Assembly (NCBI RefSeq): GCF_011039175.1
Contig: NZ_JAAKEN010000007.1
Location: 62,001-126,000, forward strand
Source: Slackia sp. ZJ119
GTDB taxonomy: Bacteria > Actinomycetota > Coriobacteriia > Coriobacteriales > Eggerthellaceae
Reading direction: 5' to 3'
DNA: 64,000 bases
The translations under genes were made by a program, and so were the position numbers. This document shows, piece after piece, positions 46,388-58,317 of the stretch; within the stretch, counting starts at the first letter, position 1, and the number at the start of each line of letters is the position of its first letter. A model generated the notes under the pieces. It searched no databases and was not told the DNA's origin. It worked only from the letters and a program-made list of their open reading frames with translations.

Positions 46388-46813
46388 ATGAGCGTGCAAC
46401 AGATCAGCGTGTTCGTCCAAAGCCAGCCGGGACACCTGCTGCGCATTTTGGAAGCGTTCGAGTCGTCGCACGTCAGCGTGCGCGGCTACTGCGCGTCGGA
46501 CACCGGCGACTACGGCATCGTGCGCTTCATCGTCGACGACCCGGCGCGAGGCCTTGCCGTTCTGCAAGAGCAGGGAGCGGCTGCGGCCATGACCGAGGTG
46601 CTGTGCGTGAAGCTGGAAGACCGCCCGGGCGAGCTTGCCCGCGTGGCCGCCGTGTTCGCGGAAAAGGGCATCAACGTGACGTATGGCTATTCGCTCATTT
46701 CCACCTACATCGCGCTGAAGGTCGACGACGTGGCGCATGCCAAAGAGCTTCTGGCCGACACGTCGGTCGAGACGGTGTCCCAGGCCGACCTTGCGGCGCT
46801 GGAACGCGAATAG
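46388..46813 (+). CDS. Tandem ACT-domain protein
   Basis: A 141-aa protein made of two ACT domains (residues about 4-66 and 72-138: ISVFVQSQPGHLLRILEAFE and LCVKLEDRPGELARVAAVFAEKGINVTY). ACT domains bind amino acids. Such stand-alone proteins are regularly found with indolepyruvate oxidoreductase and phenylacetate-CoA ligase genes and probably adjust the pathway to aromatic amino acid level. It starts 3 nt after iorB. Confidence 0.9.
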   Translation: MSVQQISVFVQSQPGHLLRILEAFESSHVSVRGYCASDTGDYGIVRFIVDDPARGLAVLQEQGAAAAMTEVLCVKLEDRPGELARVAAVFAEKGINVTYGYSLISTYIALKVDDVAHAKELLADTSVETVSQADLAALERE

Positions 46814-46823
46814 GAGGCGTGCG

Positions 46824-48182
46824 GTGATCGACAAGCAAGAAGCGCTGAAGGCTCTGCAGACGCAGGACTACTCGTTTTTCCCCATTCACAACCCGGCCAT
46901 CGAATGCGCCAGTCGGGAGCGCATCCGCGCCATCCAGCTGGCAAAGCTCATCGAACAGGTGGCGTGGACCTACGAACGCGTGCCGTGGTACCGCGAGAAA
47001 ATGGACGCGACGGGCGTGTCGCCCGCCGACATCAAGACGCTTGAGGACGTGCGCAAGCTGCCCTTCACGGACAAGTCGGCGCTGCGTGACACGTTCCCGT
47101 ACGGCCTGTTCGCCGTGCCGCTTGACGAAGTGGTGGAGCTGCATGCCTCGTCGGGCACCACGGGCAAGCCCATCGTGGTCGGCTACAACGCCCACGACAT
47201 GGACATGTGGGCCGACTGCATCGCGCGTCTGGTGCAGATGGCGGGCGTCGTGCCGTCCGACCGGGCGCAGATGGCGTTCGGCTACGGCATGTTCACCGGC
47301 GGCTTTGGGCTGCATTACGGCCTGCAAAGCCTCGGGTGCATGATGATCCCCGCCGGCTCGGGCAACACCGAGCGCCACATCGCGATGATCGAGGACTACG
47401 GCACCACCGTGCTCATCGCCACGCCGTCGTATGCGTTGCACGTGTGCGAGGTGGGAGAGCAGATCGGGTACGACTGGTCGAAGTCGCCGCTGCGCGTGGG
47501 GCTGTTCGGCGGCGAGCCGTGCCCGCCGAAGCTCAAAGAAGAAATAGAGTCGCGGATGCACGTCATCTGCACCGACAACTACGGGCTGACCGAGGTCATG
47601 GGGCCGGGCGTGTCGGGCGAGTGCTTGGCCAGCCGCGACATGCAGCACATCGCCGAAGACCATTTCCTGTGGGAAGTGGTCGATCCGGAGACGGGCGAGC
47701 CGGTGCCGGACGGCGAGATGGGCGAGCTGGTGCTCACGCCGCTTGGCAAGCAGGCCATCCCGGTTTTGCGCTATCGCACGCACGACCTGACGCGCGTCGT
47801 CACCGAACCGTGCGCCTGCGGACGCACCACGGCACGCATGCAGAAGGTGCGCAGCCGCTGCGACGACATGCTCATCATCCGCGGCACGAACGTGTTCCCG
47901 AGCCAGATCGAAGACGTGCTGGCGGGCATCGAGGGCCTCACGCCGCACTATCGCATCGTCGTGGACAACGAGACGGGCCTTGATCGCCTGACGCTGCACG
48001 TCGAGCTGAAGCCCGAGGCGTTCTCGGATTCGTTCGAGCAGATGGACGCGTTCCGCACGTCCATCGCCGAGAAGCTGAAGAGCGTGCTGCTCGTCGGCGT
48101 GACGGTGCGCCTGGTCGAGCCGGGCGGCATCGAACGCAGCTTCGGCAAGACGAAGCACGTCGAGGACAAGCGCCGCTCGTAG
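46824..48182 (+). CDS. paaK: Phenylacetate-CoA ligase
   Basis: A 452-aa AMP-forming ligase. The P-loop is HASSGTTGKPIVVGYN (about 111-126), the adenylate motif is TDNYGLTEVMGPGVSGEC, and the C-terminal hinge is RSRCDDMLIIRGTNVFPSQIE. It activates phenylacetate or indoleacetate to the CoA ester or, run in reverse after IOR, yields ATP from the CoA ester; the latter fits a fermentative operon. Start GTG 46824 with TAGGAGG. The palindromic repeat copy B follows its stop by 13 nt. Confidence 0.93.
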   Translation: MIDKQEALKALQTQDYSFFPIHNPAIECASRERIRAIQLAKLIEQVAWTYERVPWYREKMDATGVSPADIKTLEDVRKLPFTDKSALRDTFPYGLFAVPLDEVVELHASSGTTGKPIVVGYNAHDMDMWADCIARLVQMAGVVPSDRAQMAFGYGMFTGGFGLHYGLQSLGCMMIPAGSGNTERHIAMIEDYGTTVLIATPSYALHVCEVGEQIGYDWSKSPLRVGLFGGEPCPPKLKEEIESRMHVICTDNYGLTEVMGPGVSGECLASRDMQHIAEDHFLWEVVDPETGEPVPDGEMGELVLTPLGKQAIPVLRYRTHDLTRVVTEPCACGRTTARMQKVRSRCDDMLIIRGTNVFPSQIEDVLAGIEGLTPHYRIVVDNETGLDRLTLHVELKPEAFSDSFEQMDAFRTSIAEKLKSVLLVGVTVRLVEPGGIERSFGKTKHVEDKRRS

Positions 48183-48195
48183 AGGCAGGCTTGTT

Positions 48196-48266
48196 TAGGG
48201 AAACGCCGATCAATTCCGCCAGCCCCGCGGACCCAGGGCAAGACGGCTCTAATCAGCGTTTCCCTA
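48196..48266. repeat. Palindromic repeat element, copy B (71 bp)
   Basis: Terminal inverted repeats TAGGGAAACGC[C/T]GAT (48196-48210, complement at 48252-48266); the whole element is almost one long hairpin. Its right arm (read in reverse) matches the left arm of the element at 7084-7249 in 41 of 44 positions, and its left arm matches that element's right arm. It lacks the central filler present in copy A. It lies 13 nt after the paaK stop. Confidence 0.85.
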
Positions 48267-48299
48267 GCTGCATACGAAGGGTCGCCGCGGCGGTCCGGC

Positions 48300-48332
48300 A
48301 AAACGCCCTGGAGCGCGTCTCCGGGGCGTTTT
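48300..48332 (+). terminator. Terminator between paaK and gluQ
   Basis: AAAACGCCC (48300-48308) pairs with GGGCGTTTT (48324-48332), with an inner GGAG/CTCC pairing and a terminal T-run. Confidence 0.65.
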
Positions 48333-48387
48333 GGGAATGAGGGAAGACGCAGTGCAGGCGGAAAGGCAGAAGGGGGAGGGGAGCGCC

Positions 48388-49323
48388 ATGGGAAGCGGCC
48401 GACCGGTGAAGGGGCGGTTCGCGCCGTCGCCGACGGGGAGGATGCACGCAGGCAACGTGTATGCGGCGCTCGTCGCGTGGCTTATGGCCAAATCGGCCGG
48501 CGGCACGATGGTGCTGCGCATCGAGGATTTGGACCGAGAGCGGTCGAAGCCCCGCTACATCGACCAGGTACAGCGCGATTTCGAAGCACTGGGCCTCACC
48601 TGGGACGAGGGGCCGTATTTCCAGCACGGACGCGACGAGGCGTATCGCGACGCCTTCAACCTGCTGCAGGAGCGCGGGCTGGTGTACCCCTGCTATTGCA
48701 CGCGGGCCGACTTGAAAGCGGCCTCGGCGCCGCATTTCGGCGAAAAGGCGGTCTACCCCGGCACGTGCCGCAACCTCTCGTCTGACGCGCGGCGTGCACG
48801 CGAAGAGGACGGCCGCATGCCGGCATGGCGGCTGGCGGTGCCGGACGCCGCCGTGGCGTTCGACGACGCGTTCCAGGGGGCCTACGCCCAAAACCTTTCA
48901 AGCGAATGCGGCGACTTCGTGGTGCGACGGTCCGACGGCCTGTTCGCCTACCAGCTGGCCGTCGTCGTCGACGACGCCGAACAAGGCGTCACGTCGGTGG
49001 TGCGCGGCGTCGATCTTTTGTGCTCCACGCCCCAGCAGATACATCTGGGACGCCTGCTGGGCGCGGCCGAGCCGCCGCGCTATGGCCATGTGCCGCTGTT
49101 CGTCGGGCCCGACGGCAGGCGCCTGTCAAAGCGCCACAAGGACGCCGACCTGGAAGCCCTGCTGGCCGCATACGGCTCGCCAGAAGCCGTGATCGGTCGC
49201 ATTGCGCACAAAAGCGGCTTGGCGCCGACCGACGAGCCGACCACGCCCGAAGCTTTGCTGCATATTTTCGACGAAAAAGAGTATCGGAAACGCATCTGTG
49301 GCTTAATAAGTATAAGCTGGTAG
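48388..49323 (+). CDS. gluQ: Glutamyl-Q tRNA(Asp) synthetase
   Basis: A 311-aa enzyme, a glutamyl-tRNA synthetase catalytic core without the anticodon-binding domain. It attaches glutamate to queuosine-34 of tRNA-Asp. It has the FAPSPTGRMHAGNVYAAL (HIGH-like) motif at residues about 11-28, the zinc site CYC...YPGTC, and the SKRHKD (KMSKS-like) loop near residue 249. Start ATG 48388 after GGGGAGGGG; the earlier ATG 48337 has no such site. The last residues run into a noticeably AT-rich stretch, but length is normal for the family. Confidence 0.9.
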   Translation: MGSGRPVKGRFAPSPTGRMHAGNVYAALVAWLMAKSAGGTMVLRIEDLDRERSKPRYIDQVQRDFEALGLTWDEGPYFQHGRDEAYRDAFNLLQERGLVYPCYCTRADLKAASAPHFGEKAVYPGTCRNLSSDARRAREEDGRMPAWRLAVPDAAVAFDDAFQGAYAQNLSSECGDFVVRRSDGLFAYQLAVVVDDAEQGVTSVVRGVDLLCSTPQQIHLGRLLGAAEPPRYGHVPLFVGPDGRRLSKRHKDADLEALLAAYGSPEAVIGRIAHKSGLAPTDEPTTPEALLHIFDEKEYRKRICGLISISW

Positions 49324-49427
49324 CTCATCAATTAAAACACCTGGTCAAAATGTTAACTACCGCACTCTGCGTGAAGACATTTATGCCCTAATCACCAAAA
49401 TTCATCCATCATGCGGTTAGTCGTGAA

Positions 49428-49550
49428 CCATACGTTTCAGGTATGGTCGCCCATACGTTCTTCGTGATCCACAGAAAATCTATGAAGTGCCCAGTCATTG
49501 AGAAGGGAGGGATGACGAAGCTGCTTCGTGGCTTCGTCCACTATGTATGG
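49428..49550. promoter_or_regulatory. Cluster of CCATAC motifs upstream of the molybdoenzyme operon
   Basis: CCATACGTT occurs twice as a direct repeat 23 bp apart (49428-49436 and 49451-49459), with an inverted GTATGG between them (49441-49446) and another at the next start codon (49545-49550). ACCATAC/GTATGGT at 49427-49447 also forms a 7-bp dyad. This is in the AT-rich gap 49324-49546, the expected place for binding by the LuxR regulator at 55623. Confidence 0.35.
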
Positions 49551-50302
49551 ATACCGCAGAACCTGCCTTTGAAGAACCGATTCCCGCCGTCCAAGGCGAC
49601 GGCGCAGAAGAATCGGCCGTCACTGACAAGTCAGAGGAAGCAAGCGTTCCGACCATCGAAGAGCTGACGTTCGACCAAGCCTACGACATCCTCGGCAGGT
49701 GCGTCACGCGCCATCCGCTCAACCGCGACGTGCTCTACGACGCGCTTGTCTATTGCGCAGAAGAGCGCATCTTGCGCGACGCCGAGAACCATCTCGCTGC
49801 GCTTCCGGCTTTCGCCACCGCCACCCAAAACCAATATTTCTTGCTCATGTCGCTCGTGAAGGCCTACGGGCTGGACTACATCGAGCGCGACGAAGCGGGC
49901 GAGCTTGTCACCGCCGATCGAAAAGAAGGCCTCACCGAAGACGAGATAGACGACTTGGTGGCGACCGTTTCGTTCAAAACGACCGAAGTCGGCCTTTCAT
50001 TCGTCGAGCAAAACAAACCCCAGGCACGTCTCGTGTCGCTTCTGCAGCTCAACCCCGAGCGCGTCGACACGTACCGAGAGGTGCTTGAGTTCGTCGACGG
50101 GCAGCCTCGCAGCTACAACGACATCAAAGAGCTGCTGGCCGGCCGCCCCGTGCTGCAAACCTTCATCGACGGCAAGCTGGAAACGATGCAGCCAAGCGTC
50201 TTTGTGGACAAGCTGGAGCGCGCAGGCGCTCTTGTTTGGAATAACGGATGGACTCTGACCAGGGAGGGAAAGGAATTTTTGATCGATCTTCAGAACAAGT
50301 AG
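49547..50302 (+). CDS. Hypothetical protein preceding the molybdoenzyme
   Basis: A 251-aa soluble protein, family not recognised. Residues 1-35 are acidic and disordered. The middle is helical (FDQAYDILGRCVTRHPLNRD). The last 80 residues look like a winged-helix (NDIKELLAGRPVLQTFIDGK, then WNNGWTLTREGKEFL). It may be an accessory or regulatory protein of the enzyme made by the next gene, 34 nt downstream. It is distinct from the TorD-type chaperone encoded further on. No clear ribosome site precedes ATG 49547; the GGGAGG run at 49505 is in the wrong place for it. Confidence 0.75.
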   Translation: MDTAEPAFEEPIPAVQGDGAEESAVTDKSEEASVPTIEELTFDQAYDILGRCVTRHPLNRDVLYDALVYCAEERILRDAENHLAALPAFATATQNQYFLLMSLVKAYGLDYIERDEAGELVTADRKEGLTEDEIDDLVATVSFKTTEVGLSFVEQNKPQARLVSLLQLNPERVDTYREVLEFVDGQPRSYNDIKELLAGRPVLQTFIDGKLETMQPSVFVDKLERAGALVWNNGWTLTREGKEFLIDLQNK

Positions 50303-50336
50303 GCAACCAAAGTCAAACTGGAGGAGAGGAAAGACT

Positions 50337-53252
50337 ATGACGAAATCCAACTTGACGCGCAGAAGCTTCGTCAAGGTGTCCGCTCTGGCGGGCGCGGCGA
50401 CCGCCATCGGCGCGTCCATGGCCGGGTGCATGTCGGAAAGTGCGCCCGCGCCGGAAGAGCCTGCCAAGGAAACGACCGCAACCGCCGAATCCGCGCCGGC
50501 CGAAGACAGCAAGGCCGGCCTCACGAAGATGCGCACGAGCTGCCACGGCTGCATCCAGATGTGCCCGGCCATCGCGTATCTGAAAGACGGCGTCGTCGTG
50601 AAGCTCGAAGGCGACCCGGAGGCTCCGGTGTCCCGCGGCTCTCTGTGCATCAAGGGCCTGAACCAGCTGCACACCATGTACAGCCCGCGCCGCGTGCTGC
50701 ATCCTTTGCGCCGTGCCGGCGAGCGTGGCGAGAACAAGTGGGAAGTCATCAGCTGGGACGAGGCCATCACCGAGGCGGCCACCCACATCAAAGACGCCAT
50801 CGACAAGTACGGCAACTACGCCTTCTTCGCCAGCGTCGGCGGCGGCGGCTCCTACTCGTTCATGGAAGCCATGACCCTGCCGATGGCCTTCGGCTCCCCG
50901 ACGGTGTTCGAGCCTGGCTGCGCCCAGTGCTACCTGCCCCGCTGGGCCCTGTCAAAGCTCTTCTATGGCGGCGACGACCAGTCCATCGCCGACAACGCCG
51001 TGCAGGAGATCTTCAAGCCTGAAGACAACCAGACCGAAGTCGTCGTCATCTGGGGCGCCCAGCCTTCCGTGTCCGAGACCGCCGAGTCCGGCCGCGGCAT
51101 GGCCGAGCTGCGTGCCGCCGGCGTGAAGACGGTCGTCGTCGACCCCAACTTCTCGCCCGACGCCGTGAAAGCCGACGTGTGGCTGCCGGTTCGCCCGGGC
51201 TCCGACACGAAGCTTCTGCTTTCCTGGTTCCGCTACATCTTCGAGAACAAGCTCTACGACGAAGAGTTCACGAAGTACTGGACCAACCTGCCCTTCCTCA
51301 TCGACATGGACGAGAAGTCCGAGCGCTACAAGCTGCCCGTGCTCGCGCAGGACATCTTCCCGGACTTCAAGCAGACCACGCCGGAAAACACGCCGGCCTA
51401 CGTGTGCTTCGACCTGAAGACGAACCAGGTCGCGCCGTTCGAATACTCCGCGCCCGCCGACGCCGTCGTCGACCCGGAGATCTTCTGGGCAGGCGAGTAC
51501 GAAGGCAAGTCCTACAAGACCGCCGGCCAGATCTACAAAGAAGAGGCCGATCCTTGGACGCTTGAGAAGACCGCCGAGGAATGCTGGCTGCAGGCCGACA
51601 AGATTGAAGAGGCCATCAAGCTCTACGTCGAGAACAACGGCGGCATCGCCAACGGCGTGGCCTCCGACATGACCGAGTCGGCTTCGCAAGTGCCGCTCGG
51701 CTGCATGGGCCTCGACTCCATCATGGGCCGCATCAACAAGCCCGGCGTGACCATGACGCAGAAGGGCGGCGGCTACTTTGCCGCAGAGTCCGAAACCGGC
51801 GAGACCAAGTCCATCCGCCCCGTCACCTACAACAACGGCTTCGGCGGCATGTTCTCCGACATGTACGGCATCGGCGCCGTCATCGGCCTGTCCGACGCCC
51901 AGAACGAAGAGCGCATCAAGGCCATGGCCGAGACGAACGGCGAGATGCAGAAGCGCCACAACCAGCTGCTCGTCGACCGCTTGGGCATGAAGGACCACAA
52001 GGGCCTCTACGCCTGGTGCCATTCCCACATCCCCACGGTGCGCAACGCCATCGCCACCGGCGAGCCGTTCAAGCCGCGTGTGTGGTTCGACATGTCCGGC
52101 AACAAGCTGGCCATGCTTGGCAATGCGAAGTCGTGGTACGACGTGTTCCCCGAGGTCGACTACATCATCGGCCAGTACCCGATGCTCACGTCGTTCCACA
52201 TCGAGGCGTGCGACCTGGTCTTCCCGCTGCGCGAGTGGCTGGAAGAGCCCATGGTGAACATGACGCAGCTCGACACCCAGTGGCTGCAAAACGAGTGCAC
52301 CCACATCGGCGAGACGGTGTCGCACTCCATTCCGGCGGCCCAGGTCGTCAACAAGTGCCGCGAGATGTGGGGCGGCGAGATCCCCGGCGGCCTCATGCCC
52401 GGCCTGCTCGCCAGCGCCACCGAAGCCGAAGTGAAGCAGGGCGTGGCCGACACGCTTGGCGCTCCGGACTGGGAGACGCTGCAGGCCAACACCGACGAAT
52501 ACGTGCCGTTCGTGACGCCGAACTACTGGAACTATGGCCAGCACGAGCAGATCTGCGACGAGGACGGCCTGCCGTCCGGCTTCGCCACCGAATCGCGCAA
52601 GATCGAGACCTACTGCCAGATGCTCATCAAGATGGCCCGCACGGGGTATCCGTACTGCTATCCCGAGCCGCAGGAAGCCTGCGCGGACTACAGCCCCATC
52701 TGCTGCGCCATCGAGCCGGCTGAAAGCCCGATGGAATCGGCCGAGGGCTACGACGCCGAGTATCCCTTCGTGCTCACGTCCGGCCGCGTGCCGTACTTCC
52801 ATCATGGCACGATGCGCCACGCGCCGTTCAGCCGCGAGCTGTTCCCCACGGCCGAGATCCGCATCAACCCGGCCAGCGCCAAGGAGCTCGGCATCGAGCA
52901 CATGGACTGGGTCAAGGTCACGAGCCGCCGCGGCGAAGTGCATGCCCGCGCGTATCTGACCGAAGGCGTGAACCCCAAGACCGTGTGGATGGAGCGCTTC
53001 TGGAATCCCGAGTGCTACGACGCCTCGCAGGCCAATCCCACCGGCGGCTGGCTCGAGTGCAACGTCAACGTGCTCACGAAGAACGACGCCCCGTTCAACG
53101 AGGTGTACGGGTCCTACACCAACCGCGGCTTCACGGTGAAGATCGAGAAGTCGACGCGTCCCGAGAACATTTGGGTCGAGCCTGAAGAATTCGCCCCGTT
53201 CCTGCCGACGAGTGAGATGCTTGCCGAACCTCAGACGAAGGATGTGTTCTAA
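50337..53252 (+). CDS. Molybdopterin-dependent oxidoreductase, DMSO reductase family, catalytic subunit
   Basis: A 971-aa exported enzyme. A Tat signal (TRRSFVKVSALAG, residues 7-19) runs into a lipobox-like MAGC with Cys31. The [4Fe-4S] site is C69-x2-C72-x3-C76-x27-C104. The candidate Mo-ligand region FEPGCAQCYLPRW (192-203) has two cysteines; the true ligand cannot be assigned by eye. The C-terminal domain contains LTSGRVPYFHHGTM. Substrates of this family include S- and N-oxides, thiosulfate and, in gut Eggerthellaceae, catechols. Linked genes are an Fe-S subunit, TorD chaperone, membrane subunit and a membrane LuxR regulator. The stop overlaps the next start (TAATG). Confidence 0.9.
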   Translation: MTKSNLTRRSFVKVSALAGAATAIGASMAGCMSESAPAPEEPAKETTATAESAPAEDSKAGLTKMRTSCHGCIQMCPAIAYLKDGVVVKLEGDPEAPVSRGSLCIKGLNQLHTMYSPRRVLHPLRRAGERGENKWEVISWDEAITEAATHIKDAIDKYGNYAFFASVGGGGSYSFMEAMTLPMAFGSPTVFEPGCAQCYLPRWALSKLFYGGDDQSIADNAVQEIFKPEDNQTEVVVIWGAQPSVSETAESGRGMAELRAAGVKTVVVDPNFSPDAVKADVWLPVRPGSDTKLLLSWFRYIFENKLYDEEFTKYWTNLPFLIDMDEKSERYKLPVLAQDIFPDFKQTTPENTPAYVCFDLKTNQVAPFEYSAPADAVVDPEIFWAGEYEGKSYKTAGQIYKEEADPWTLEKTAEECWLQADKIEEAIKLYVENNGGIANGVASDMTESASQVPLGCMGLDSIMGRINKPGVTMTQKGGGYFAAESETGETKSIRPVTYNNGFGGMFSDMYGIGAVIGLSDAQNEERIKAMAETNGEMQKRHNQLLVDRLGMKDHKGLYAWCHSHIPTVRNAIATGEPFKPRVWFDMSGNKLAMLGNAKSWYDVFPEVDYIIGQYPMLTSFHIEACDLVFPLREWLEEPMVNMTQLDTQWLQNECTHIGETVSHSIPAAQVVNKCREMWGGEIPGGLMPGLLASATEAEVKQGVADTLGAPDWETLQANTDEYVPFVTPNYWNYGQHEQICDEDGLPSGFATESRKIETYCQMLIKMARTGYPYCYPEPQEACADYSPICCAIEPAESPMESAEGYDAEYPFVLTSGRVPYFHHGTMRHAPFSRELFPTAEIRINPASAKELGIEHMDWVKVTSRRGEVHARAYLTEGVNPKTVWMERFWNPECYDASQANPTGGWLECNVNVLTKNDAPFNEVYGSYTNRGFTVKIEKSTRPENIWVEPEEFAPFLPTSEMLAEPQTKDVF

Positions 53253-53869
53253 TGAAAAACTGCCTGGTAATCGATTTGGACCGCTGCTCGGGCTGCGACA
53301 GCTGCGTGGCGGCGTGCAAACTGGAAAACGAAATCGACCTCGGCGTGAAGTTCACCCGCGTGAACGCCGTCGGTCCTACCGGCACCTTCCCGGACATTGA
53401 AATGTACTGGCTGCCCATGCAGTGCCAGCAGTGCGAAAACCCCGGCTGCATCGAAGTGTGCCCGACCGGCGCGTCGTACCGCGACGAGGCTACCGGCGTG
53501 GTGCTGGTGAACGCCGACGACTGCATCGGCTGCGAGACCTGCCTGACCGGCTGCCCCTATAACGTGCGCACGCTGAACCCGAACACCAATGTGGTGGAGA
53601 AGTGCACGCTGTGCTTCCATCGCCGCGGCGACGAGGCCGGCTGGGAGCCTGCCTGCGTGCACAACTGCTGCTGCGGCGCCCGCTTGTTCGGCGATCTGGA
53701 CGATCCCGAGTCCGACGTGTCGAAAGCCATCGCAGCCGCCGGCGAAGAGAACGTCCATCACATCTACGATCCCGCGTCTCTCGCGCCTTCCACGGCCTAC
53801 ATTCTGCATGAGAAGGTGGCCGCTTGGGTCGAGGAGCCCGAAGAGGTCGAACGCTACGAGAAGAAGTAG
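53252..53869 (+). CDS. Four-cluster ferredoxin-type electron-transfer subunit (DmsB-like)
   Basis: A 205-aa Fe-S protein with four cysteine groups in DmsB/PhsB order: CSGCDSCVAACK (12-23), CQQCENPGCIEVCP, CIGCETCLTGCP, and CTLCFHR...CVHNC. It should carry electrons between the membrane quinol pool and the catalytic subunit and be exported with it, having no signal of its own. Coupled to the upstream gene by TAATG. Confidence 0.93.
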   Translation: MKNCLVIDLDRCSGCDSCVAACKLENEIDLGVKFTRVNAVGPTGTFPDIEMYWLPMQCQQCENPGCIEVCPTGASYRDEATGVVLVNADDCIGCETCLTGCPYNVRTLNPNTNVVEKCTLCFHRRGDEAGWEPACVHNCCCGARLFGDLDDPESDVSKAIAAAGEENVHHIYDPASLAPSTAYILHEKVAAWVEEPEEVERYEKK

Positions 53870-53918
53870 CCTGACCCCGCCTACCAACGGGGCCGTCTCG
53901 GCCCCGTGGTACTGATAA

Positions 53919-53968
53919 GCTCCCTGGCAGGATCCCTCCCACCTCTTCTGCCAGGGAGCGCTTTTTTC
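53919..53968 (+). terminator. Terminator after the Fe-S subunit gene
   Basis: A 12-bp perfect stem, GCTCCCTGGCAG (53919-53930) and its complement (53948-53959), followed by GCTTTTTT. A second GC-rich hairpin (53887-53907) lies just upstream. The TorD gene follows, so its expression is probably reduced relative to the enzyme subunits or it has its own promoter. Confidence 0.8.
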
Positions 53969-54011
53969 GCGTGCTATCATAGGGAGACAGAGAGAAGAGA
54001 GGGGTGGTTTG

Positions 54012-54764
54012 ATGGCCGATGAAGAGATTCTTGCTTCCGGGGAGGCCAGCGAGCCTCAGACGGATGCCGAGCTGATCGAGCAGATCATAGGAGCCCTTCG
54101 CGGCCGAGCCGCCTTCTATGACCTGCTCGCAGCCGTCTATTTCAGGCCGCTGACGGCCGAACAGATCGAGAACATCGCCGATTTGGACGTGTCGGCTTAT
54201 GCCGACATGAACGAGCTGTTCGCCGACGGGTGGAACGACGTGACGCGTTATCTGCGCAAACGCCACAGCGGCACGCGGCAGGAGCTGGCCGTCGACTTCA
54301 CGTCCGCCTTCGCCGGCACCTCTTCGTGGAAGGGCCGCTATGCCGTGCCCTACGAGTCGGTGCACACGAGCGCCGAAGGGCTCATGTTCCAAGACTCCTA
54401 TCACGAGGTGTTCACCCTGTATCGGCAAAACCGTGTGGAACGGGCGGCCGGCTACGACTATCCGGACGACCACCTTTCGTTCATGTGCGAGTTCATGGCC
54501 ATCCTGTCGGAGCGCATCATCGAAGCGCTCGAGCAAAACGACGTGGAAGCGGCCGCCGAGCAGGTCAAGATTTCGCGCGACTTTCTGGCCGACCACATCC
54601 TGTCGTGGTTCGATTCGCTGCAGGACCTGGCGCTTTTGCTGCTGGAAACGCGCTTTTACCGGGGCATTCTGAAAATCAGCAAGGGCTTCTTCCAGGAAGA
54701 CGCCGAGCTGCTCGACAGCATTCTCGCCGAACTGGCCGACCAGGCCGCCGAGGAAGGGGAGTAA
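54012..54764 (+). CDS. TorD/DmsD-family molybdoenzyme chaperone
   Basis: A 250-aa all-helical cytoplasmic chaperone (RAAFYDLLAAVYFRPL at about 33-48; the family motif around YPDDHLSFMCEFM at about 156-168). It holds the catalytic subunit until cofactor insertion and Tat export. ATG 54012 follows AGAGGGG. The next gene begins 5 nt after its stop. Confidence 0.9.
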   Translation: MADEEILASGEASEPQTDAELIEQIIGALRGRAAFYDLLAAVYFRPLTAEQIENIADLDVSAYADMNELFADGWNDVTRYLRKRHSGTRQELAVDFTSAFAGTSSWKGRYAVPYESVHTSAEGLMFQDSYHEVFTLYRQNRVERAAGYDYPDDHLSFMCEFMAILSERIIEALEQNDVEAAAEQVKISRDFLADHILSWFDSLQDLALLLLETRFYRGILKISKGFFQEDAELLDSILAELADQAAEEGE

Positions 54765-54769
54765 GCGCC

Positions 54770-55498
54770 ATGGAATTCGCTTTGATCATGATCGGCACCG
54801 TTGTCGCGTGCGCCCTTCTGCGCAACCCCATTCACAAGGCCCCGATGGTCTTTTATGTTCTGGCGGTGGGCATCGACGTCTTGTTCGTGGCCTGCTCGTA
54901 CTTTGCGGTGCCGCGGTGGCTGTGGCTCGCCATGTTCGAGCTCATTCAAACCTGCATGCTGCCGCTGGCCATGTTCGTCTTGGTCATGTACATCGGCTGC
55001 TTCAAAAAGGGAAGCAAGCCCTACACGTGGTTCAAGCCCATCCGCGCCGAGCTGTCCATCATCGCGTGGATCTTGTCGCTCGGGCATTGCGTGGTGTACC
55101 TCATGTCGTACATGCCGCGCGTCACTTCGGGCGGTGCCGTGACGTCGAACGTCATGGCGGCCTTCGTGCTGGCCATCGTCATTTTGGTGCTGCTCATCGT
55201 GCTGGGCGTCACGAGCTTCGGCTTCGTGAAGAAGGCCATGAAGACCGAAACGTGGAAGAAGGTGCAAAAGCTCGCCTACCCATTCTTTGGGCTGGTGTAC
55301 GTGCACCTGCTGCTCATGCTCGGGCCTTCGGCCATGCGAGGCGGCCAGGCGGCCATCGTGTCGGTGGCCGTGTATTCGGTCGTGTTCGGCGCGTACCTCG
55401 TGTGGCGCGTCGCTCGTGCGCTGTCCGACAAGCGGGCCAACGAGCCGACGGGCGCATCAGCTGCATCCGCCTCGTTCGACGAGCCGCTCGAGGCGTAA
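54770..55498 (+). CDS. Membrane subunit, probable b-type haem anchor
   Basis: A 242-aa protein with about six membrane helices. Histidines lie within or next to helices (SLGHCVVYLMSYM at about 102; VYVHLLLMLGPSAM at about 178), a pattern like the ferric-reductase/MsrQ group that binds haem b. It is not an NrfD-type subunit. It would connect the quinol pool to the Fe-S subunit. The polar Ser/Ala tail is cytoplasmic. Placement immediately after the TorD gene supports membership in the complex. Confidence 0.75.
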   Translation: MEFALIMIGTVVACALLRNPIHKAPMVFYVLAVGIDVLFVACSYFAVPRWLWLAMFELIQTCMLPLAMFVLVMYIGCFKKGSKPYTWFKPIRAELSIIAWILSLGHCVVYLMSYMPRVTSGGAVTSNVMAAFVLAIVILVLLIVLGVTSFGFVKKAMKTETWKKVQKLAYPFFGLVYVHLLLMLGPSAMRGGQAAIVSVAVYSVVFGAYLVWRVARALSDKRANEPTGASAASASFDEPLEA

Positions 55499-55519
55499 GG
55501 CGCCTGCCGAGCCTTTGAA

Positions 55520-55602
55520 AGAAAGCCCTGATGACCAGCTGGCCGACATATGCAAGCTTCTCTGCGTTGCGCCCGTTCGACCGGCGGCCGTCAGGGCTTT
55601 CT
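55520..55602 (+). terminator. Long-loop inverted repeat before the LuxR gene
   Basis: AGAAAGCCCTGA (55520-55531) and its complement TCAGGGCTTTCT (55591-55602) are separated by 59 nt, which themselves contain GC-rich pairing. It lies between the membrane-subunit gene and the regulator. It could be a terminator or an attenuator. Confidence 0.45.
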
Positions 55603-55622
55603 CGTTTGAAGGGCGGCCTCTT

Positions 55623-57209
55623 GTGAGAGAAGGGCCGCTTCAGAGGCTGGCGTCCGCCTGTCCCATCCTTCCTTTTTTGTCGCTGGGCCTGTGGCTTGCG
55701 GACACGCATCTGATGAGCAGCGGCACCGTGTGGCTGTCCGACACGGAAATGAACGGCGAAAACATTTCCACCTTGTTCGTGACGCTCACGCTGTCGTTTG
55801 CGTTCATGCTGCTGCTTTCCGTTTTCAGTCCTCCGCGCGTCGCCAAAGCGCTCGCAACGCCACGAGCCGTCGTGGCTGGCGGCGTCGTGGCGTCTTTGGG
55901 CTGTTTCATCGTCATCGCCATCGGTCCGTACTACCTCATGCCGGTGCTGCCGTACAAAGTGATACGGGCGCTGTTCTATATGAGCGGCGTTTTGGGCGGC
56001 TTAGGGCTTGGCGTGCTGTGCCTGCACTGCGGATCGCTCTACAGCAGCCTGCCGCCCATTCGCATGACCACCTACACGGCGCTGTCGTTTTCGCTGGTGG
56101 CCGTCAGTTTCTTCGTGGTCGTCGGAGGTCCGGAGTGGGCGCCGGTCAAAGGCGGGCCGTCGCTTATCGGCATCATCGTGTTCGTGGGAAGCCCGCTTGT
56201 CGCGGCGCTGCTTTCCGTGCTGCCCGCCAATCTCGACAACGCGGTGCGGCCCAAGGCCAAAGACCCGCTCCGAAGCAGCGGACGAACCGACCTGCCGGTG
56301 TCGTTTTCCAAGCTCATGGCGGTCGTGTTCGTGTTTTCGCTCATCATGTACACGGTGCGCTCCGCCACCGTGCAGTTTGCGCCGGTCGAAAACACCGCCG
56401 GCGACACGAGCGTCGTCATGGAACTGCTGCTGTTTTTGACCATCGGCATGGCTGGATTCGTCGCGGCCACAGGTGGCGCTCGCCTCAATTTCGGTCGCAT
56501 CTATTCGGTCGTCATGGTGGTGAGCGTCGCGCTCGTGTCGTGCTTGCCCATGGTGTCCGCGCTGCCGCTCGACCTCATCAGGGTCAACACGTTTCTCTGC
56601 TACCTGTTCGAGCTGTTCTTGTGGTGCGTGCTTTCCATCATCGCCTACCAGCGCAACGTGGCCGCTCTGCGGGTGTTCGGCTTGGGGTTCGGCTGTTATC
56701 TGGCCGGCAGCGGCATCGGGTGGCTCTTTGGGTCGCGGGTGTTCGGCGAGCTGCTGAGCGCGTTCGGCAACACCATCCCTTACATGGCCATGGCGTTCGC
56801 CGTGCTGGCCTGCGCGTTTCTCATTTTCTCTGAACGAGAGCTCGACATGCTGTTCGGGTCGGGCGGCGACGTGCCCTCCCTTGAAGACCTGATCAGCCGC
56901 GAAGTCGAGCAAGCCGAAGCAAGCGAGGCTCCTGAAGCGGTAGAGACGCAGATCGTGCACAAGGGGCTGTTCCAGGAGGCCACTCAGGCCATTGCCGCGT
57001 CGCATGGGCTCTCTCCGCGCGAAACCGACGTGCTGCGCTGTCTCGCGCGGGGCTATGACGCGAACGCGACGGCCGAGAAGCTGCACATCTCATGGAACAC
57101 CGTGCGCACCCATACGCGCAACCTGTACACGAAGCTCGACGTGCACTCCCAGCAAGAGCTCATCGGGCTGGTGGACGAGGCGCGACGCTCCGTGGAAGAC
57201 GAGGCGTAA
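55623..57209 (+). CDS. LuxR-type transcriptional regulator with large membrane domain
   Basis: A 528-aa protein. About twelve membrane helices fill residues 10-410, followed by a cytoplasmic linker. The C-terminal LuxR helix-turn-helix is at about 456-520 (LSPRETDVLRCLARGYDANATAEKLHISWNTVRTHTRNLYTKLDVHS). This architecture is characteristic of Eggerthellaceae regulators placed next to DMSO-reductase-type operons and thought to sense the substrate at the membrane. GTG 55623 was chosen for its GAAGGG site and position just before the first helix; the frame continues upstream without another good start. Confidence 0.85.
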   Translation: MREGPLQRLASACPILPFLSLGLWLADTHLMSSGTVWLSDTEMNGENISTLFVTLTLSFAFMLLLSVFSPPRVAKALATPRAVVAGGVVASLGCFIVIAIGPYYLMPVLPYKVIRALFYMSGVLGGLGLGVLCLHCGSLYSSLPPIRMTTYTALSFSLVAVSFFVVVGGPEWAPVKGGPSLIGIIVFVGSPLVAALLSVLPANLDNAVRPKAKDPLRSSGRTDLPVSFSKLMAVVFVFSLIMYTVRSATVQFAPVENTAGDTSVVMELLLFLTIGMAGFVAATGGARLNFGRIYSVVMVVSVALVSCLPMVSALPLDLIRVNTFLCYLFELFLWCVLSIIAYQRNVAALRVFGLGFGCYLAGSGIGWLFGSRVFGELLSAFGNTIPYMAMAFAVLACAFLIFSERELDMLFGSGGDVPSLEDLISREVEQAEASEAPEAVETQIVHKGLFQEATQAIAASHGLSPRETDVLRCLARGYDANATAEKLHISWNTVRTHTRNLYTKLDVHSQQELIGLVDEARRSVEDEA

Positions 57210-57357: not shown

Positions 57358-58281
57358 TTAGGCGCAGGCGAGAACGGCGGCCCCGTAAAACGCCCCAAGC
57401 ACGACGTTCAAGCTGGCGATCTGGCCCATCGCGCCGATGCGGCTTGCCGCGACGAGCGGATTGTTCCACAGCGCCTTGGCGACAGGCCAGCCGGCAAGCA
57501 CCATAAACACGCACACGATCAGGCCTTTTGAAAACCAGACAGCCGTCAGCGCGATGATGGCCGCAAACCACGCGACGATGAGCGCATGATAGGTGCGCAC
57601 GGCCCGCGCCCGTCCCAGCACGACCGGCAGCGTGCGCCGTTTCGCTTCGACGTCTTTCTCGATGTCGCAGGTGTTGTTCGTCATCATGATGAGCCCCACG
57701 CCGATGACGGTCGGGACGGCCCACAGCAGCGCGAGCCAAGAAAACGTGCCGGTCAGCGCCTGGTAGCACGCCAGCGGAATGAGCCCGCCCATGACCACGC
57801 CGCTTGCGACCTCGCCGAGCGGCAGATATGAGATAGGCGTCTTGCCCGCCGAGTAGCACACGACGAACAGGGCACCGATGCATCCGATGGCAAGCGGAAC
57901 CCACCCGGCAACCCAGATGACGTAAGCGCCGAGCGCGAATGCGGCGGCCAGCAGCCCGATGGCAAGCACCAGGGCGTGTTTCGGGTTCACGTTGTTGTAC
58001 ACGAGCACGGCGTCGGTAGGGTCCACGTTGTCGTCGGCCGAATCGGCTTCCTTCACGAAGTCGTAGTAGTCGTTGAACGTGTTGACGGCCGACTGCATGA
58101 GAATGCAAATGGCCAAGAGCACGCACGCCATGACCAGGGACGGGCTTGTTGCAACCGACGCCGCGGCATACGCCACGAAGCAGGGAAGGATGGCGGCCGG
58201 CCAGGTGTGGGGCGCCGCCAATTGCAGCATCATCGTCGGCGTGAGCGGGTCGTAGGCGTTTTCAAGCGATTGCGCGGTCAC
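57358..58281 (-). CDS. menA: 1,4-dihydroxy-2-naphthoate polyprenyltransferase (UbiA family)
   Basis: A 307-aa membrane prenyltransferase of menaquinone synthesis with about nine helices. The two Asp-rich motifs are NDYYDFVKEADSADD (about 67-81) and DIEKDVEAKRRTLPVVLG (about 195-212). The start is most likely GTG 58281, with an AAAGGA site 7 nt before it. An ATG at 58317 would overlap a TATAAT that looks like the promoter -10. Menaquinone is the likely electron donor for the molybdoenzyme encoded next door. Confidence 0.88.
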   Translation of the reverse strand: MTAQSLENAYDPLTPTMMLQLAAPHTWPAAILPCFVAYAAASVATSPSLVMACVLLAICILMQSAVNTFNDYYDFVKEADSADDNVDPTDAVLVYNNVNPKHALVLAIGLLAAAFALGAYVIWVAGWVPLAIGCIGALFVVCYSAGKTPISYLPLGEVASGVVMGGLIPLACYQALTGTFSWLALLWAVPTVIGVGLIMMTNNTCDIEKDVEAKRRTLPVVLGRARAVRTYHALIVAWFAAIIALTAVWFSKGLIVCVFMVLAGWPVAKALWNNPLVAASRIGAMGQIASLNVVLGAFYGAAVLACA

Positions 58282-58317
58282 AACAGATCCTTTGCTTTCG
58301 GTGGGAAACCGCTTCAT

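Follow-up and report, generated by a model that had tools for sequence, protein, structure and literature searches.

A molybdoenzyme cluster of Eggerthellaceae that combines a lipobox-bearing catalytic subunit with a ferric-reductase-like putative haem b protein

Orphan molybdoenzymes that act on drugs and on compounds of the diet are encoded by the dozen in gut Eggerthellaceae, and one of the gene clusters of these bacteria raises the questions of what it reduces and how its enzyme is wired to the membrane. The cluster lies in a 64,000-nucleotide stretch of the genome of Slackia sp. ZJ119 (contig NZ_JAAKEN010000007.1, positions 62,001 to 126,000; hereafter the window), and this genome, of Eggerthellaceae type, is 2.84 Mb in size with 21 Molybdopterin matches. 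Six genes, which we call A0, MoA, FeS, TorD, Mem, and LuxR, follow one another on the forward strand (Table 1). An earlier note on this DNA had delimited the same range and named a molybdoenzyme, a four-cluster iron-sulfur protein, a TorD chaperone, a haem-b-like subunit, and a LuxR regulator. All five were found on the forward strand, but the opening gene, A0, had gone unnamed. The assembly is not fortuitous, because the gene order is repeated in at least 15 independent genomes. Sequence comparison also supported the proposal of an inducible respiratory or dehydroxylase-like locus, and a close grouping of MoA with a characterized enzyme, which the note had named as refutation, did not appear; thus, the observation in the note was confirmed and its interpretation partly supported. 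We propose, with a probability of roughly 0.6, that the cluster specifies a respiratory reductase that works outside the cytoplasm, is fed by menaquinol, induced through LuxR, and directed at an organic, dehydroxylase-like substrate.

MoA matched the Pfam families Molybdopterin, Molydop_binding, and Fe4S4 above their cut-offs, which places it in the family of molybdenum-bis(molybdopterin guanine dinucleotide) (Mo-bisMGD) enzymes typified by dimethyl sulfoxide (DMSO) reductase. Its N-terminal [4Fe-4S] site consists of C69, C72, C76, and C104. The score for TAT_signal, the model of the twin-arginine translocation (Tat) signal, was 19.3 bits, just below the Pfam cut-off of 22.7, and the twin-arginine motif is plain. 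Since the probable ligand region (GCAQC) has two cysteines, the note had left the Mo ligand, and with it the substrate class, open. That ambiguity did not survive the alignment: Cys198 is invariant and occupies the column that holds the ligand Cys in PsrA, NapA, and the dehydroxylases and a Ser in DmsA and TorA, while Cys195 is replaced with Ala or Gly in many relatives, and the ligand is therefore almost certainly Cys198.

The note had suggested a phylogeny against catechol dehydroxylases, DmsA, PhsA, and acetylene hydratase. We constructed a quick tree (LG+G4, 120 enzymes) and a more careful one (mixture model, 50 enzymes) from molybdoenzymes of the window genome, Eggerthella lenta, Gordonibacter, and Slackia with Escherichia coli references; for acetylene hydratase and PsrA, we used the partial sequences available in PDB alignments, and PhsA was judged only through PsrA. 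In the mixture-model tree, MoA and its relatives formed a clade of their own (support 100/100), both types of catechol dehydroxylase and acetylene hydratase formed another without MoA (96/95), and DmsA, NapA, and PsrA were placed elsewhere, DmsA far from MoA. Neither tree grouped MoA with the partial sequence of Pelobacter acetylene hydratase. On these sequences, the MoA clade appears to be distinct from, yet near to, the acetylene hydratase/catechol dehydroxylase clade. The nearest relative of the Pelobacter enzyme in both trees was another protein of the window genome (L096, G000:C6:11841-13187), possibly an acetylene hydratase-like enzyme.

MoA might alternatively be a true catechol dehydroxylase that is merely deep-branching and acts on an untried catechol. 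It shares 32-35% aligned identity with the Eggerthella-type enzymes, and its locus has the DadhE-type (A0) and TorD-type accessory genes and the transmembrane (TM) LuxR gene that characterize their loci. The quick tree grouped MoA with them (support 91); we dropped a sister relationship on the disagreement of the mixture-model tree, although the approximately unbiased (AU) test did not reject it (p 0.278). The 96/95 clade that leaves MoA out, the replacement of the DmsC anchor and NapG/NapH by Mem, and a conservation above that of flanking housekeeping genes, where the dehydroxylases are variably distributed, nevertheless make this alternative unlikely.

We consider it quite unlikely, too, that MoA reduces an inorganic or an S- or N-oxide acceptor of the polysulfide, thiosulfate, arsenate, or DMSO type. 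Its best single match in the PDB was indeed the polysulfide/thiosulfate reductase PsrA (126 bits), its best NCBIfam match was PhsA, and FeS, which has Fer4-type domains, came closest to the models of NrfC and ArrB. However, the PhsA score was 165 bits against an equivalog cut-off of 694, and every other score was likewise far below its equivalog cut-off. In both trees, the partial PsrA of Thermus fell among other enzymes of Eggerthellaceae, apart from MoA in the mixture-model tree, and the Cys ligand excludes the Ser-type DmsA and TorA, whose clade MoA does not join.

The membrane subunits commonly found in complexes of this kind are di-haem cytochrome b-like or NrfD-like proteins (review, PMC8076601). 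Mem is not NrfD-like, as the note had stated, and matched Ferric_reduct (PF01794) with 33.5 bits against a gathering cut-off of 28, a cut-off exceeded by all 19 orthologues. Exactly two histidine columns, both in the core helices, are conserved, and they are invariant in 47 of 47 Mem proteins. The AlphaFold2 model (mean predicted local distance difference test score, pLDDT, 86) has seven helices rather than the six counted earlier, and its best fold matches in Foldseek were STEAP4, STEAP2, STEAP1, and Dcytb (probability 0.97-1.00, E 0.04-0.24). From these sequence features, Mem is probably a ferric-reductase-fold protein carrying one haem. A positive-inside reading would put both histidines nearer the outer face. 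The simplest interpretation is one haem b that receives its electrons from menaquinol at the outer side. Mem does not belong to MsrQ: that NCBIfam model gave weak E-values in 8 of the 19 members and none for the window protein, and the partner of Mem is a bis-MGD enzyme.

In four genomes, all 12 Mem-family genes were located within about 2.6 kb of a molybdoenzyme gene, and in 19 of 20 fetched regions, which partly overlap the 12, the Mem-family gene was likewise near one; by our own arithmetic, molybdoenzyme genes extended by 3 kb in both directions occupy about 6-15% of such genomes. A phylum-wide sample of 296 genomes gave strong Mem matches in the family of the window alone. Relatives of Mem also occur beside several other molybdoenzyme families (L100, G000:C11:427-1089, and L213-L232), at L220 and L231 with the enzyme on the opposite strand. 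Searches of the main texts of open-licence papers found no mention of a Mem-type membrane subunit with bis-MGD enzymes, and guessed E. lenta locus tags gave no text match there.

What Mem replaces is evident from sister loci (L048-L069 and most of L150-L199), in which FeS is followed by a DmsC-type anchor and TorD usually by NapG- and NapH-like ferredoxins. Window-type loci have Mem in place of this set. The window cluster has an FeS subunit, as the catechol dehydroxylases do, without their DmsC-type anchor. None of 60 scored loci combined the two sets, NapH being found near Mem at two loci only through a neighbouring molybdoenzyme cluster, and at least four exchanges between them are required on the MoA tree. 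This pattern bears on a further alternative, in which Mem is not a quinol dehydrogenase but either has a sensory role or hands electrons on to a different cytochrome or a flavodoxin-like protein. The single haem would suit such a role, as would the relatedness to STEAP and Dcytb, which use NADPH-FAD or ascorbate. We regard it as improbable, since Mem substitutes for the quinol modules DmsC and NapG/NapH, is never found together with them in a cluster, and has relatives adjoining many different molybdoenzymes.

The exchange of the membrane module is accompanied by a change in the catalytic subunit. A lipobox terminates the Tat signal of MoA in 24 of 25 Mem-type loci (MAGC in the window), and the sole exception (L046) is a mis-started open reading frame whose homologous start gives SLAGC. 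Among DmsC-type MoA proteins, it was found in 4 of 39, all from one subclade with a weak or lost DmsC (Fisher p 1.8e-12). In sequence terms, the association of lipobox and Mem is a strong pattern of limited phylogenetic weight. Seven MoA-family loci in metagenome-assembled genomes (MAGs) of Coriobacteriales (L158, L159, L163, L165, L174, L188, and L195) have the lipobox and neither DmsC nor Mem was detected there; most of them have NapG/NapH, and a further wiring may therefore exist. We lean slightly towards the view that iron-sulfur molybdoenzymes have a third type of membrane partner in Eggerthellaceae, a cytochrome b with the ferric-reductase fold and one haem, in addition to the NrfD/DmsC-like proteins and the di-haem cytochromes b. 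On this view, it was swapped at least four times with DmsC and NapG/NapH within one enzyme family, jointly with a lipid anchor on the catalytic subunit, and serves a conserved class of reductases distinct from catechol dehydroxylases.

The opening gene links the cluster to the dehydroxylases. A Pfam search assigned A0 to no family, its predicted model (pLDDT 87) resembles two winged-helix domains, and the gene is kept across MoA-family clusters. In the genome that we take to be that of E. lenta DSM 2243 (L039), which carries the dadh, cadh, and hcdh loci, an A0 profile found six genes, of which half accompany MoA-family genes and the other three belong to the dadh, cadh-accessory, and hcdh loci. 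We recognized the dadh locus because its LuxR-LysR pair and gene order (TM-LuxR, LysR, a 620-aa gene, an A0-like gene, TorD, NapG, and NapH) fit the published order of DadR, DadS, and DadhD-H (PMC11887054). By sequence, A0 is a homologue of DadhE, the indispensable yet unexplained accessory protein of dopamine dehydroxylase. Loss of dadhE in the expression host Gordonibacter urolithinfaciens abolished the activity of Dadh but not its expression, and AlphaFold3 placed DadhE on the Dadh catalytic subunit (PMC11887054). Because of this homology, A0 is most likely a maturation factor for MoA. A role as transcription regulator, suggested by PadR/MarR-like winged-helix matches, is kept only as an alternative, since all matches had E > 0.001 and Dadh expression is spared by the loss of DadhE. 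The window genome has a second A0-like gene (L103, G000:C36, about 34-39 kb) beside an Eggerthella-type catechol dehydroxylase, which shares 75% identity with the one located at 657 kb in the E. lenta cadh cluster.

LuxR, the twelve-helix regulator of the note, combines about 11-12 N-terminal helices by hydropathy count with a C-terminal helix-turn-helix (HTH) domain (PF00196), as expected of the 10-12-TM LuxR regulators of Coriobacteriia. TM-LuxR activators are established in E. lenta, where DadR, HcdR, and CadR activate the genes of their enzymes, and more than 98% of the clusters in this regulator family have no assigned function (PMC9734109). A candidate operator was found upstream of A0, where 14 loci share a pair of imperfect palindromes (IR1 and IR2), IR1 agreeing with its consensus at 13-16 of 16 positions. 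The starts of the two palindromes are 44 bp apart in the window, 42-44 bp apart in 13 of the 14 loci, and 34 bp apart, one helical turn less, in the other. Within ten scanned genomes, the IR1 pattern occurred at a single place, the A0 promoter, in seven, and the other three have degenerate copies below the pattern threshold. The window copies are themselves degenerate and, taken alone, at chance level for the window; their significance comes from the conserved position and spacing and from the near uniqueness of the pattern in other genomes. At a similar distance downstream, other loci have the -10-like boxes TATAGT, TATATT, TAGAGT, TAAAGT, and TACAGT. A recognizable pair is lacking at the window-clade loci L037, L045, L046, and L047. 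By analogy, the arrangement fits activation beside the -35 region by a dedicated LuxR like DadR, HcdR, and CadR, and LuxR may bind both palindromes. A sigma-70-type match at 54831, inside mem, was no more than expected by chance.

The cluster is widely conserved. MoA relatives were detected in most of 138 family genomes searched, and a tight orthologous group with 76-100% identity was present in about 22 of them. Among the fetched neighbourhoods, the six genes have the same order in Adlercreutzia, Eggerthella, Candidatus Rubneribacter avistercoris, and other Eggerthellaceae; a Slackia genome (L047) instead has LuxR ahead of the cluster in divergent orientation. All four sampled Eggerthella genomes and most Adlercreutzia genomes carry it. 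In E. lenta, the cluster, at about 1.886 Mb of the chromosome, occupies the same place as in the window, between a GluQ-like gene and menA; MoA is 80% identical between the two, while these neighbours are 68-69% identical. Judged from these sequences, MoA is more conserved between genera than the flanking housekeeping genes, unlike the variably distributed catechol dehydroxylases, and its substrate is therefore probably common in the gut. Relatives near 50% identity occur in many Coriobacteriales MAGs, several of which, going by their names, are presumably termite-gut samples.

The surroundings of the cluster, named by eye, comprise genes for an ACT-domain protein, a phenylacetate-CoA-ligase-like protein, and a GluQ-type tRNA-modifying synthetase upstream (46388-49323) and, convergent with the cluster, a MenA-like prenyltransferase of menaquinone synthesis (57358-58317, minus strand), which has the same place in E. 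lenta. Around the E. lenta cluster, the ACT and GluQ genes and menA stand in the same order as well. The wider neighbourhood provided no substrate clue, and the flanks in Adlercreutzia differ.

Taking these results together, the cytoplasmic maturation of MoA would depend on A0 and TorD, the Tat pathway would export MoA jointly with FeS, and MoA would then be anchored by a lipid at Cys31. Mem, with its putative single haem b, would oxidize menaquinol at the outer face of the membrane, and the electrons would travel by way of the four FeS clusters and the [4Fe-4S] cluster of MoA to the Mo-bisMGD held by Cys198. As with the related catechol dehydroxylases, reduction would most likely take place at a C-O bond of a small organic acceptor, which is probably none of the catechols assigned so far. 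The membrane-bound LuxR would sense this acceptor and activate the A0-MoA-FeS promoter through the two palindromes.

Several points weigh against this model. The tree has no resolution at the base of the MoA clade, and two of its references are partial. All Foldseek E-values for Mem exceed 0.001, and one haem is fewer than in the usual di-haem cytochromes b of such complexes. The lipobox correlation comes down to four independent exchanges, of which three are concordant and none is opposite (p 0.25). The palindromes might be the target of a different regulator. Furthermore, a terminator-like hairpin (z -5.15), whose loop of more than 8 nucleotides puts it outside a simple terminator scan, parts A0-MoA-FeS from TorD-Mem-LuxR, which may therefore be two transcription units.

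Table 1. Positions in the window of the genes and sequence elements of the cluster.
Feature	Position	Strand	Description
IR1 imperfect palindrome CTACCGCACTCTGCGTGAA	49357..49375	+	Putative LuxR operator; consensus CTCACGCA-NNN-TGCGTGAG; 13/16 positions
IR2 TTCATCCATCATGCGGTTA	49401..49419	+	Consensus TTCATCCA-NNN-TGCGGATG; 14/16 positions
TATGGT	49442..49447	+	Likely -10 box, about 22 bp after IR2; from aligned upstream regions
A0	49547..50302	+	251 aa; no Pfam family; two winged-helix-like domains; DadhE homologue, probable maturation factor
MoA	50337..53252	+	971-aa Mo-bisMGD catalytic subunit; predicted Tat export
MoA signal sequence TRRSF ... MAGC	50337..50429	+	Twin-arginine motif and lipobox ending at Cys31
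Cys198 codon	50928..50930	+	Second Cys in GCAQC; putative Mo ligand
FeS	53252..53869	+	205 aa; DmsB/PsrB/NrfC-type electron-transfer subunit; four clusters
Intrinsic terminator-like hairpin	53919..53967	+	Between FeS and TorD; 14-bp stem then T6
TorD	54012..54764	+	TorD/NarJ-type chaperone; Nitrate_red_del 96 bits
Mem	54770..55498	+	242-aa, seven-helix, ferric-reductase-like putative haem b subunit
Mem His106 codon	55085-55087	+	Invariant
Mem His179 codon	55304-55306	+	Invariant
LuxR	~55623..57209	+	C-terminal GerE (HTH) and about 11-12 hydrophobic/TM segments; GTG start at 55623 tentative

With this cluster, the maturation protein DadhE can be studied in a second context. The cluster also provides a rule that sorts orphan molybdoenzymes by their wiring (lipobox and Mem, or DmsC and NapG/NapH) and a concrete candidate operator for the TM-LuxR regulator family.

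Among known systems, a functional parallel is the methionine sulfoxide reductase MsrP-MsrQ, which likewise consists of an exported molybdoenzyme and a ferric-reductase-fold haem b membrane protein; MsrP, however, belongs to the sulfite oxidase family and has neither bis-MGD nor an FeS subunit. DmsABC and PsrABC share with the window cluster the architecture of the A and B subunits and the chaperone, but the membrane subunit in the window is not of the DmsC/NrfD type, and its Mo ligand is Cys where DmsA has Ser. The regulators DadR, HcdR, and CadR resemble LuxR in their many-helix N-terminus, C-terminal LuxR HTH, and location beside a molybdoenzyme gene; LuxR differs in forming its own orthologous group kept with the cluster, and we propose for it a candidate double operator. 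There is also a close likeness to Dadh, Hcdh, and Cadh of E. lenta, which are also Tat-exported Mo-bisMGD enzymes with a Cys ligand, a four-cluster FeS protein, DadhE- and TorD-type accessory proteins, and a 12-TM LuxR (PMC7028382, PMC11887054). These enzymes form a separate clade, and DmsC, NapG/NapH, and DadhD are replaced or absent in the window cluster, which has Mem and the lipobox instead. The system works like the catechol dehydroxylase systems but stands outside their clade and without their anchor; what is new, as far as the sequences indicate, is the wiring through a putatively lipidated catalytic subunit and a ferric-reductase-fold, probable haem b protein.

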